Assembly (NCBI GenBank): GCA_030649305.1
Contig: JAUSFV010000028.1
Span: forward strand, 1 to 38,539
Reading direction: 5' to 3'
DNA from: a bacterium
GTDB lineage: Bacteria > Patescibacteriota > Minisyncoccia > Sungbacterales > GWA2-42-14
DNA length: 38,539 nucleotides
This document shows, in pieces, positions 27,611 to 31,640 of the stretch (positions are counted from its first letter, which is position 1; every line of letters starts with the position of its first letter). The notes under the pieces are model-generated. The model did not search any database. It was given only the letters and a program-made list of their open reading frames with translations, and was not told the origin of the DNA. A program made the position numbers and the translations under genes.

Positions 27611-27988
27611 ATGAAACAAAAAAGTTTACAAATCATATATTCTTCTTTGATGGTCGGCGTGCTTCTTTTGCCGATGGTAGCCGTTGCTCAAACAGGAAGC
27701 GATCTTCAAACGACGCTTGATAAATTTACGACATATGCTCTTCGTCTTATTAATTTTCTTTTGGTTCTCGCAACGCTCGTATTCTTGTGGGGTATTATAA
27801 AATACATTACCGCGGGAGGAGATGCCGCTAAGGTTAAAGAGGCGCGGACATACATTATTTGGGGGCTGGTAGCCCTTCTGGTTATGGGTGCGGTATGGGC
27901 GCTTGCAAGCTTTTTGCGGGAAAGCATCGGGCTTGAAGAAGACACTACAATACCGCAGGATATTTATAAACAGGGGTCAGTACAATAA
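27611..27988 (+). CDS. T4SS pilin-like two-TM protein, paralogue 2
   Basis: LINFLLVLATLVFLWGIIKYITAGGDAAKVKEARTYIIWGLVALLVMGAVWAL. Confidence 0.8.
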   Translation: MKQKSLQIIYSSLMVGVLLLPMVAVAQTGSDLQTTLDKFTTYALRLINFLLVLATLVFLWGIIKYITAGGDAAKVKEARTYIIWGLVALLVMGAVWALASFLRESIGLEEDTTIPQDIYKQGSVQ

Positions 27989-28019
27989 ATCGGGATTAAA
28001 AATTAAAAAATTAATCAAT

Positions 28020-28391
28020 ATGAATGTCAGAAAAATAAATACAATATCCCAGAAAATCTTTTTCTCCTCTTTTCTTTTATTGCTTCCTCTGCTTGTTGTC
28101 GCGCAATCGGGAGATTCGTTTGATACTACTATCACTAAATTTATCAATTATGCCCTGAGCGCTATTAATTTTCTCCTGGTGCTTGCTACGCTTGTTTTTC
28201 TTTGGGGCATCATCCGGTATGTAAGCGCGGGGGGGGATGCGGCAAAGGTTAAGGAGGCGCGGAGTTATATTTTGTGGGGTATCATCGGACTTGCTATCAT
28301 GGGGAGCGTGTGGGCGTTGATCCATTTTTTGGAAGATAATCTTGGAATTGGAACTGATGAGGAACAAACTATTCCTAAGTACGGTATTTAA
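28020..28391 (+). CDS. T4SS pilin-like two-TM protein, paralogue 3
   Basis: INFLLVLATLVFLWGIIRYVSAGGDAAKVKEARSYILWGIIGLAIMGSVWALI; start chosen at MNVRKIN. Confidence 0.8.
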   Translation: MNVRKINTISQKIFFSSFLLLLPLLVVAQSGDSFDTTITKFINYALSAINFLLVLATLVFLWGIIRYVSAGGDAAKVKEARSYILWGIIGLAIMGSVWALIHFLEDNLGIGTDEEQTIPKYGI

Positions 28392-28469
28392 TAACTAAAA
28401 TAGATATCCGGGCCTTTTTTTGCTGATATAGTCAATCGGCAAGAAAATGTGTTTCGGTAAGAAGAAAAA

Positions 28470-28844
28470 ATGTTTTCTACACTCAAAACTGACTTGCTCT
28501 CTTTCCGAATGAGCAAAAAGGCGATTACGACGCTTGGTGCGCTTTCGCAGCTTGCGTTTCCGCTAGTAGTGCTCGCGGATTTAAACGACACCATCGCGCA
28601 ATTTCAAGGGTATGCCCTGCAGGCGATTAATTTTTTGCTTGTGTTGGCGACACTCGTATTTTTGTGGGGAATTTTAAAATACATCACCGCCGGAGGAGAC
28701 GCTGCCAAGGTTGCGGAAGCCCGTTCCTATATTATCTGGGGGATTGTCGGGTTGGCGGTTATGGCATCCGTTTGGGCGATTATTAATTATCTGAAAGAAA
28801 CGCTTAATATTCAGGGGGGGGATAATACGATTCCGACCTACTAA
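28470..28844 (+). CDS. T4SS pilin-like two-TM protein, paralogue 4
   Basis: INFLLVLATLVFLWGILKYITAGGDAAKVAEARSYIIWGIVGLAVMASVWAII. Confidence 0.8.
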   Translation: MFSTLKTDLLSFRMSKKAITTLGALSQLAFPLVVLADLNDTIAQFQGYALQAINFLLVLATLVFLWGILKYITAGGDAAKVAEARSYIIWGIVGLAVMASVWAIINYLKETLNIQGGDNTIPTY

Positions 28845-28858
28845 ATACTGAAAATGAT

Positions 28859-28897
28859 AAAACAAAACGCTCCGATTTCGTCGGGGCGTTTTGTTTT
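28859..28897 (+). terminator. Rho-independent terminator
   Basis: aaacaaaacgctccgatttcgtcggggcgttttgtttt. Confidence 0.8.
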
Positions 28898-29023
28898 CCC
28901 CGAAAGTGGGCGTTAAGGTCTCGTCTCTCGCGGGCTAGCCCGTGCGTTTCGCACGAACGCCCTAGGGAGGCGAGACCTTGCGTGTGAATTGCAAGAAAAT
29001 AAGAAAAGTTTTATGATAGAAGT

Positions 29024-29338
29024 ATGAAAAAATTCCTTATCCATTCATATTTTTACATCCTCCCCGCGATTGTGTTGGCGCAGGAAAGCGACGAAACCGT
29101 TCAGACGCTTCTTGAGAAGATCTCCGTAGCAATAATCAATCCCATCATAAATCTTCTGCTTGTGGTGGCAACACTCGTATTTTTATGGGGCGTTATTCAG
29201 TATTCGCTTGCGGCAGACAGCCCCGATAAAGCAAAAAAGGCGCGGAGCCAAATCGTCTGGGGCATTGTAGGTCTTGCCGTTATGGCATCTGCCTGGTCGA
29301 TTGTGAATCTGATTGAGGATAGCCTTTTTGGCCTTTGA
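29024..29338 (+). CDS. T4SS pilin-like two-TM protein, paralogue 5
   Basis: INLLLVVATLVFLWGVIQYSLAADSPDKAKKARSQIVWGIVGLAVMASAWSIV. Confidence 0.78.
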   Translation: MKKFLIHSYFYILPAIVLAQESDETVQTLLEKISVAIINPIINLLLVVATLVFLWGVIQYSLAADSPDKAKKARSQIVWGIVGLAVMASAWSIVNLIEDSLFGL

Positions 29339-29462: not shown

Positions 29463-31283
29463 ATGAAATCACTCTCAAAAAATCTTCTCTACGTTCTTGT
29501 TATTTTTATGCTGATATCAGCCGCGTATTCGCTCGTCGCGAATCCTTTTAAAGAGGAGCAATCTATTTCGCTCTCGGAATTGGTTTTAAAAATCAACGCG
29601 GGCGAGGTGGAAAAAATTGATATCTCGGGCAATCGTCTGGAAATAACGCTGAAAAATAAAGACGTGCTGAAGGCGCAAAAAGAATTTGAAGCGGGGCTTT
29701 CCGAAACGCTTGCGAATTACGGAGTGAATCAGGAGGCGCTTCGCGCTGTCGCGGTTGAGGTCAAAGAAGACGGCGGATTTGCATTCTGGCTCGGGGCGCT
29801 CTTCCCTATTTTGGCGCCCATCCTTCTTATTGGGTTTTTCATTTGGTGGACGGCGCGCCAAGTCCAACGCGGCTCCATGCAGGCATTTACCTTCGGCCAA
29901 TCGCGGGCGCGGCTCGTTACTCCCGAAAATACCAAAGACCGCGTGATGTTTAAGGACGTTGCGGGAGCAAAAGAAGCAAAAGAAGAACTTTTGGAAATCG
30001 TTGATTTCTTAAAGAGTCCGAAAAAATTCTTTGATATCGGCGCTCGCATCCCGCGCGGGGTGCTTTTGATGGGAGCGCCGGGTACGGGAAAAACCATGCT
30101 TGCGAAAGCGGTTGCCGGTGAGGCAAGCGTTCCCTTTTATCAGATTTCTGGCTCCGAATTTGTTGAAATGTTTGTGGGGGTCGGGGCGTCGCGCGTGCGG
30201 GATTTATTCAAGCTTGCCAAAAAATCAGCTCCCGCGATCATTTTTATTGATGAAATTGACGCGGTTGGCAGGCATCGTGGCGCGGGACTTGGCGGGGGGC
30301 ATGATGAGCGTGAACAAACGCTCAATCAAATTTTGGTTGAGATGGACGGGTTTGAGACTGACGCTTCTCTTATTATTATGGCGGCAACCAATCGTCCCGA
30401 CGTGCTGGATCCCGCATTGCTTCGTCCGGGCCGATTTGACCGCCGCGTTATCCTTGATTTGCCCGACATCAATGACCGCGAGGCGATTCTGAAAATTCAT
30501 GCAAAAAATAAGCAGATGGAGCGTGATGTCGCTTTGCGTACGATTGCCGAGCGCACACCGGGATTTTCGGGTGCTGATTTGGCGAACATGGTCAATGAGG
30601 CCGCAATTCTTGCGGCGCGCGAGAATAAAAAAATTATTAGCCAATTGCATTTGATAAATTCTATAGAAAAAGTGATGCTTGGTCCCGAGCGCAAAAGTCA
30701 TCTGCTTTCGCCAAAAGAGAAAGAAATTTCTTCGTATCACGAAGCGGGGCATGCCTTGGTTGCGGCAAGCATTCCCGGCATGGATCCGGTGCATAAAATT
30801 TCAATTGTCTCGCGCGGGAAGGCGGCGGGGTATACCCTCAAGATTCCTTCGGAGGACCGGCATCTGCATTCGCGAACATACTTTTTGGGCGAGATCGCCG
30901 TGGCACTCGGCGGGTATGTCGCGGAAAAATTGGTGTTTGGCGACCTGACCACCGGAGCGTCGGATGATTTGCACAAGGCATCAGACATTGCGCGGAGCTT
31001 GGTGACACGCTACGGGATGTCGGAAAAATTAGGTCCCGCGGTGTTTGGCGGGGATGATCAGCTTGTGTTTCTTGGAAAAGAAATTTCCGCGGCAAAAAAC
31101 TATTCCGAAGAAATTGCGCGCACGATTGACGAGGAGGTGCGTTCCATCATTGATGGGGCGCACAAAAAAGCGCGCGAGATTCTCACAAAAAAGCGTCGCA
31201 AACTCGATGAGATTGCGAAGCGCCTGATTGAGCGTGAAACGATTGAACAGCACGATTTTCAGGTCATAATGGGGAAGGCTTGA
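29463..31283 (+). CDS. ftsH: ATP-dependent zinc metalloprotease FtsH
   Basis: [49 protein letters not shown] region, HEAGH zinc site. Confidence 0.97.
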
Positions 31284-31423
31284 ACATTATTTTTGAAAGC
31301 ATCAAAAATCCCCTGCCGGATTTTTGATTCGCGAAATTGTCTTGGCTTGTCAACCCGCTCGCGATACTCGGGGTTGACAAGACCATACCCAAGACAATTT
31401 CAAGCGTTTCAAAAATGATGTTC
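31282..31423. repeat. Three-way-junction palindrome at the ftsH 3' end
   Basis: Outer gaacattatttttgaaagc/gcgtttcaaaaatgatgttc; arm 1 tcaaaaatcc/ggatttttga; arm 2 gaaattgtcttgg/ccaagacaatttc plus cttgtcaaccc/gggttgacaag. Confidence 0.85.
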
Positions 31424-31507
31424 TGCGCTTTGGGGTTTTCTGTTGGAATGGGTGCGTAGCTCAGCGGTTAGAGCCCCGAGCTTATACCTCGGTGGTTTTC
31501 TGGCCCG

Positions 31508-31613
31508 CCCCCACACTCAAATTTTCGGTCCGTAGCTCAATGGCAGAGCGCCAAGCTTATACCTTGGTGGTTCCTGGTTCGAGTCCAGGCGGACCGACGT
31601 TTGAGTGTGGGGG
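31508..31613. repeat. Perfect 14-bp inverted repeat bracketing the inner tRNA
   Basis: ccccccacactcaaa-type arm CCCCCACACTCAAA (31508-31521) and TTTGAGTGTGGGGG (31600-31613). Confidence 0.95.
31526..31597 (+). tRNA. Intact inner tRNA, anticodon TAT (Ile-type)
   Basis: CGGTCCG-TA-GCTC-AATGGCA-GAGC-G-CCAAG-CTTATAC-CTTGG-TGGTT-CCTGG-TTCGAGT-CCAGG-CGGACCG-A; all stems paired. Confidence 0.88.
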
Positions 31614-31640
31614 TGAAAATCCAGGCGCACCCAATTTTTT

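Follow-up and report, generated by a model that had tools for sequence, protein, structure and literature searches.

A tRNA-Ile(UAU) gene nested in the T-loop of another tRNA-Ile(UAU) gene in a Patescibacteria genome, and its likely origin from a hairpin-ended element associated with GIY-YIG nucleases

The window analyzed here (the whole 38,539-nt stretch, contig C35 of the Patescibacteria assembly G000, which totals 1.02 Mb in 54 contigs and is 94.7% complete) carries on its forward strand a complete tRNA-Ile(UAU) gene (31526–31597 by Rfam, 31526–31598 by ARAGORN) nested in the T-loop of a second tRNA-Ile(UAU) gene (31450–31633). The 5′ part of the outer gene (31450–31503) includes the acceptor strand GGGTGCG (31450–31456), the D-arm, the anticodon arm and the T-stem strand TCTGG (31499–31503), and is followed by the tetranucleotide CCCG (31504–31507, of the form YNYR) and the left terminal inverted repeat CCCCCACACTCAAA (31508–31521). 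On the other side of the inner tRNA come the right repeat TTTGAGTGTGGGGG (31600–31613), the tetranucleotide TGAA (31614–31617), and the 3′ part of the outer gene (31618–31633), i.e., the natural T-loop remainder AAT, the T-stem strand CCAGG (31621–31625), the acceptor strand CGCACCC (31626–31632) and the discriminator A. Thus, T-loop bases TTCG (positions 54–57) are lost, and in their place stands an insert of ~106 bp between the repeat ends, flanked by CCCG and TGAA, whose sole content is a tRNA. The nest lies ~170 bp downstream of ftsH (29463–31283, forward strand), a syntenic marker whose C-terminus adjoins tRNA-Ile(UAU) loci in 17 relative genomes. Nested hairpins (arms of 17, 13, 18, and 11 bp) occupy positions 31282–31423 between ftsH and the nest, and small paralogous membrane proteins are encoded in a tandem array at 27611–29338, the two tested being matches to Pfam T4SS_pilin.

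All stems of the interrupted outer tRNA are still formed: the acceptor pairs at 7/7 positions, the D-arm is intact, the anticodon arm (CCGAG-CTTATAC-CTCGG) pairs at 5/5 positions, and the T-stem has five pairs, one of them G-U. Both the inner tRNA and the 5′ part of the outer one score above the Rfam tRNA gathering threshold (69.8 and 36.1 bits, respectively), and the composite folds 6.9 standard deviations better than shuffled sequences. An earlier note, made from the sequence of the window, had described a tRNA within the T-arm of another one, bracketed by a perfect 14-bp inverted repeat and leaving an outer T-loop devoid of TTC; every part of this description is present at the right coordinates, the two repeats being 100% complementary. 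The note had also pointed out the CTTATAC loop common to both tRNAs, an identity of anticodon which follows a rule among elements of this kind (see below) and is no coincidence.

The same locus in related genomes provides both the empty site and an orthologous nest. In four members of the same family (G002–G005), the gene orthologous to the outer tRNA has no insert (GGGAGTG...GGTTCGAGTCC...CACTCCC), with TTCGAGT as its T-loop. Another genome, G001, harbors the same T-loop nest with orthologous outer halves (78% identity to the window over 195 nt), which speaks against a chance arrangement and makes a misassembly of the window very unlikely; although all results derive from assembled, mostly metagenomic, sequences, finding the arrangement in independent assemblies rules out misassembly as a general explanation. 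In G001, a third tRNA, itself decayed, surrounds this nest, which sits in its anticodon loop, for a total of three layers. Between G000 and G001, the outer tRNAs are 91% alike, whereas the inner tRNAs are not orthologous: the inner tRNA of the window is closest to a tRNA from another family (G054, 90% identity, vs. 78% with its own outer tRNA), and that of G001 is closest to one from G008 (81%). The two cargos thus arrived separately. The earlier note had asked for compensatory changes in the outer halves, and these exist, since the acceptors differ by compensated pairs (GGGTGCG/CGCACCC in G000 vs. GGGAGCG/CGCTCCC in G001). We do not take this covariation to prove that the outer tRNA is functional, and it is not attributable to selection on the interrupted composite, because with non-orthologous inner tRNAs the changes may predate the insertion.

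Other insertions were seen as well. Six of them (L016, L018, L020, L022, L024, and L003) are of a different type: they lie in the anticodon loop of an outermost tRNA-Ile next to ftsH, have a conserved internal loop (GGCAGGGARSAAG / GAGTGAGCGAAYC) and no Rfam match, and enclose a tRNA-Ile in some cases only. In G002, a family-level relative, broken and nested tRNA-Lys copies are clustered on contig C18 (L052), where the anticodon arm contains additional palindromic inserts and a tRNA-Ala is nearby; this locus (L044/L052) is identical over the compared stretch to L097 from Candidatus Sungbacteria RIFCSPLOWO2_01_FULL_47_32.

AUA codons are read either by a lysidine-modified tRNA-Ile(CAU), which requires the enzyme TilS, or by tRNA-Ile(UAU). 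No TilS (PF01171) was detected over the cut-off in G000 and 12 relatives, with 14/14 controls positive, and the 56 tRNAs identified from G000 include no regular tRNA-Ile(UAU) other than the inner one. This tRNA is therefore probably the only AUA reader in this genome, and its loss would be lethal.

The ends of the insert are found well beyond this locus. They are of the type CCCCCACACY...RGTGTGGGGG, extended outwards by the YNYR tetranucleotide (YNYR-CCCCCACACY), and 27 CCCCCACACY half-sites were detected in G000 (vs. 3 for the reversed control), with eight paired copies. Paired copies enclose a bare hairpin on contigs C6, C21, and C25, non-gene DNA on C17 and C42, and a tRNA-Arg cassette on C29. 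Across the class, the GGCCCGCCYCSACACTYA module (one mismatch allowed) was found in 9 of 392 genomes (none for the reversed control), and a second family of ends, CCCCGTTAGA...TCTAACGGGG, in 27 of the 392 (control 0), isotype-matched nests being found with this second family as well. Additional bare hairpin copies occur in G322 and in G016 (C12:43042), the latter reading in frame within smpB and adjoining the tmRNA gene. Separately, a ~130-bp repeat that has long inverted repeats (CCCCCACACTCAAAATGGTATARC) and a conserved outer flank (TGCTCAATGYTGCAGC) was noticed in four copies in G000, on C19, C29 (838), C31, and C44 (1651) (L152, L159, L163, and L170).

One paired copy of G000 (C16:19568–19850, L172/L148) contains only a complete ORF of 80-odd residues with a GIY-YIG nuclease domain (Pfam PF01541), has the same ends as the window insert and is flanked by a TTTA duplication on both sides, which makes it a candidate autonomous element. 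The same kind of GIY-YIG cassette lies in a coding gene of G301, between CACG duplications. Homologs of this nuclease, whose nearest solved structures are the UPF0213 proteins 1zg2 and 1ywl, are encoded by 99 of the 117 genomes of the class survey. Of the 30 best homologs, at least 18 have inverted repeats close by on both sides (score 12–25 vs. shuffle maxima of 8–12), a count which is a lower bound since a few loci reach contig ends. The type of end follows the nuclease tree, with five changes, the minimum possible, when none of 200 shuffles was as low. This co-evolution and the association of nuclease and ends suggest that the nuclease may mobilize the cassettes.

Junctions were compared between sites. 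At tRNA sites, the tetranucleotides adjoining the repeats are mostly YNYR when read inwards from both sides (TTCA/CAAG, CTTG/TGAA, CNCG/TGAA), independently of the family of ends, and are usually not target duplications; CCCG and TGAA in the window neither duplicate each other nor match the lost TTCG. Perfect 4-bp duplications (TTTA, TGAA, CACG, and CTTG, plus CAAG at one tRNA) occur mostly at non-tRNA sites, including four with the same ends (on C16 and C25 of G000, and in G301 and G609).

A scan of contigs from 85,000 genomes returned 39 matches, 34 of them in Patescibacteria, most of which sit inside a recognizable tRNA; 33 of these 34 enclose a tRNA predicted by ARAGORN, a proportion which is not the share of elements with a tRNA cargo, as the scan pattern required a tRNA-like GGTTC between the ends. 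The five matches outside Patescibacteria have no tRNA between the repeats, and no nest was found in the viral contigs scanned. Insertions are located in D-, anticodon and T-loops, and the cargo is always co-directional with its target. The nested arrangement is thus recurrent across Patescibacteria, and sometimes three layers deep. The statement of the earlier note that there was no bacterial precedent was fair with regard to the literature, in which we found no paper on nested tRNAs or tRNA introns of these groups (preprints and most subscription papers being outside the search), but does not hold for the genomes themselves.

Inner and outer isotypes are identical in 33 of the 39 nests tested, vs. 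a mean of 4.5 and a maximum of 15 in 20,000 permutations, the misses being mostly short or decayed outer tRNAs, or Met. Isotypes were called with ARAGORN and a panel of 188 tRNAs by junction-anchored scoring, the panel confusing Met with Thr, Arg, and Ile, and L097 (labeled Stop by ARAGORN) was set to Lys by hand. This scoring replaced an earlier classifier based on loose local alignment (24/34), which had been misled by neighboring tRNAs.

Individual nests show further features. In Giovannonibacteria (L129), a Met element lies inside a copy of itself, giving three layers, and in G627 (L140) two successive T-loop insertions with different end variants form a triple Gln nest. Two identical Gly cassettes reside in two tRNA-Gly remnants of a single genome (L098 and L114). 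Leu cassettes from four candidate phyla (Uhr-, Staskawicz-, Lipton-, and Falkowbacteria) share 78–86% insert identity among most pairs but have unrelated flanks, and the same Leu cassette was found in different loops. Outer copies are visibly decayed in the outermost Ile copy of G001, on C29 of G000, and in L119, L122, and L230. In the acceptor-pairing test, 7/7 pairs are retained in several T-loop nests, individual shuffle p-values being weak in GC-rich flanks, and no acceptor was found for C29 and C42.

Taken together, we consider it likely (probability of about 0.78) that a hairpin-ended, GIY-YIG-associated mobile element broke a tRNA gene and supplied a copy of the same isotype. The insert of the window would be a non-autonomous copy of a Patescibacteria mobile element whose autonomous-looking relatives carry one small GIY-YIG nuclease gene. 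This nuclease, or host repair after its cut, would insert the element preferentially into the loops of tRNA genes, and the insertion in the window would have replaced the TTCG of the T-loop. Since tRNA-Ile(UAU) is probably the sole AUA reader without TilS, such an insertion should kill the cell; the cell would survive it thanks to the complete tRNA-Ile(UAU) brought as cargo. The inner tRNA would be co-transcribed with the disrupted gene and released by RNase P and tRNA 3′ processing, perhaps with help from RNase III on the stem. The outer halves would then decay into a relic, and the newly arrived tRNA could itself become a target, yielding “Russian dolls.” Survivorship may then account both for the restriction of persisting insertions to those with the right cargo and for the co-direction of cargo and target, a bias which selection, but also homologous recombination, could produce. 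The outer tRNA of the window is most likely a well-preserved relic, even though the absence of visible decay in its stems counts against this. This fits the suggestion of the earlier note that the outer copy could be a pseudogene, favored here by the decay of outer tRNAs in many nests, and its first proposal, a tRNA-carrying insertion with terminal inverted repeats, is strongly supported by the empty site in relatives and by the recurrence of its ends on many other cassettes and around a GIY-YIG gene of the same genome.

Three other explanations have to be weighed against this one. A very improbable one is a duplication accident, in which slippage or gene conversion placed a tandem tRNA copy inside a tRNA, the inverted repeat being a terminator or a chance palindrome: the isotype shared by inner and outer tRNAs in most cases would be expected, but the recurrence of the element ends already contradicts it, as identical ends are also found around bare hairpins, around other tRNAs and around a nuclease gene, the reversed control gave almost none, and the inner tRNA of the window is nearer to one from another family than to its own outer tRNA. 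The cassettes could alternatively have spread passively, through transformation and homologous recombination between tRNA genes, with hairpin arms serving as processing stems and an incidental link to GIY-YIG genes. Such spread would account for the constant co-direction of cargo and target, for junction tetranucleotides that are not target duplications at tRNA sites, and for similar Leu cassettes with unrelated flanks in four lineages. We nonetheless regard it as unlikely, given that these ends are also present at non-tRNA sites, flanked there by perfect 4-bp duplications, and on GIY-YIG genes, where they follow the nuclease tree, and that homologous recombination would not place one Leu cassette in different loops.

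The second proposal of the earlier note, a composite RNA giving one or two tRNAs, deserves a similar evaluation. Under this hypothesis, the outer tRNA either functions with a lengthened T-arm or is spliced once the inner one has been excised, a single transcript giving two tRNAs. The intact outer stems of the window, the compensated acceptor pairs between G000 and G001, the 7/7 acceptor pairs kept in several other T-loop nests and the covariation of the arm sequences (CCCCGACACT/AGTGTCGGGG in G002) are all in its favor. Against it stand the loss of the T-loop TTC, the visible decay of outer copies in other nests and, as discussed above, the possibility that the compensated changes predate the insertion. 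Among covariance models for group I and II introns and other Rfam RNAs, only tRNA matched at the gathering score. Splicing by EndA with RtcB ligation was rejected, as neither family was found over the cut-off: EndA (PF01974) is absent from 13 genomes (G000 and 12 relatives) and was recovered in four archaeal controls, and no RtcB passed the cut-off in the same genomes, with positive controls. We therefore deem a functional composite quite improbable.

Returning to the GIY-YIG-associated element, it is tempting to speculate on a new class of elements that would recognize folded loops (of tRNAs, perhaps of rRNA hairpins, as extruded DNA or RNA), be driven by a structure-specific GIY-YIG nuclease, and persist in essential single-copy tRNA genes by bringing a replacement of the same isotype, making the host dependent and building recursive tRNA dolls across Patescibacteria. 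We put this broader view forward tentatively, and hold it to be somewhat short of an even chance. Mobile elements usually limit the harm they cause in that they splice out, stay away from genes, or restore one end of their target, whereas the host could not lose the element proposed here, because it breaks an essential gene yet brings a whole working copy. Such an element would explain the interrupted and duplicated tRNA genes of Patescibacteria, offer a possible route for tRNA-gene swaps between lineages, and assign a role to the many small GIY-YIG genes in these genomes. It would also be a warning for tRNA annotation in Patescibacteria, where wrecked outer copies are hidden.

Among known systems, tyrosine-integrase islands likewise target tRNA genes and preserve the host tRNA function, but they encode an integrase and rebuild a portion of the gene by means of an att direct repeat, whereas the ~106-bp insert has no integrase and consists of a complete second tRNA between inverted repeats. 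Archaeal tRNA introns (bulge-helix-bulge, EndA) also interrupt tRNA genes, sometimes at unusual positions; the present inserts differ from these by the lack of any detected EndA family member, the other tRNA inside the insert and the decayed outer copies. The present elements resemble MITEs and palindromic elements in their short size, terminal inverted repeats, multiple copies with the same ends, ends shared with a GIY-YIG element of the same genome and an empty site in relatives. Rickettsia palindromic elements sit in frame in genes, a likeness, by general description, to the smpB copy of G016. Unlike MITEs, however, the present elements carry a whole functional gene matching the one they interrupt, and are linked to a GIY-YIG nuclease rather than to a DDE transposase. 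Finally, non-intron insertions encoding GIY-YIG proteins were described in rRNA genes of CPR bacteria (J Bacteriol 2024, PMC11270868), a study of rRNA only, in the text of which the words “tRNA” and “inverted repeat” are absent. These share with the present inserts a CPR host, a small GIY-YIG gene or a short ORF-less insert, the distinction from group I and II introns and, by description, a location at the tops or bases of stem-loops, whereas the inserts reported here lie in the loops of tRNAs and carry a replacement tRNA.
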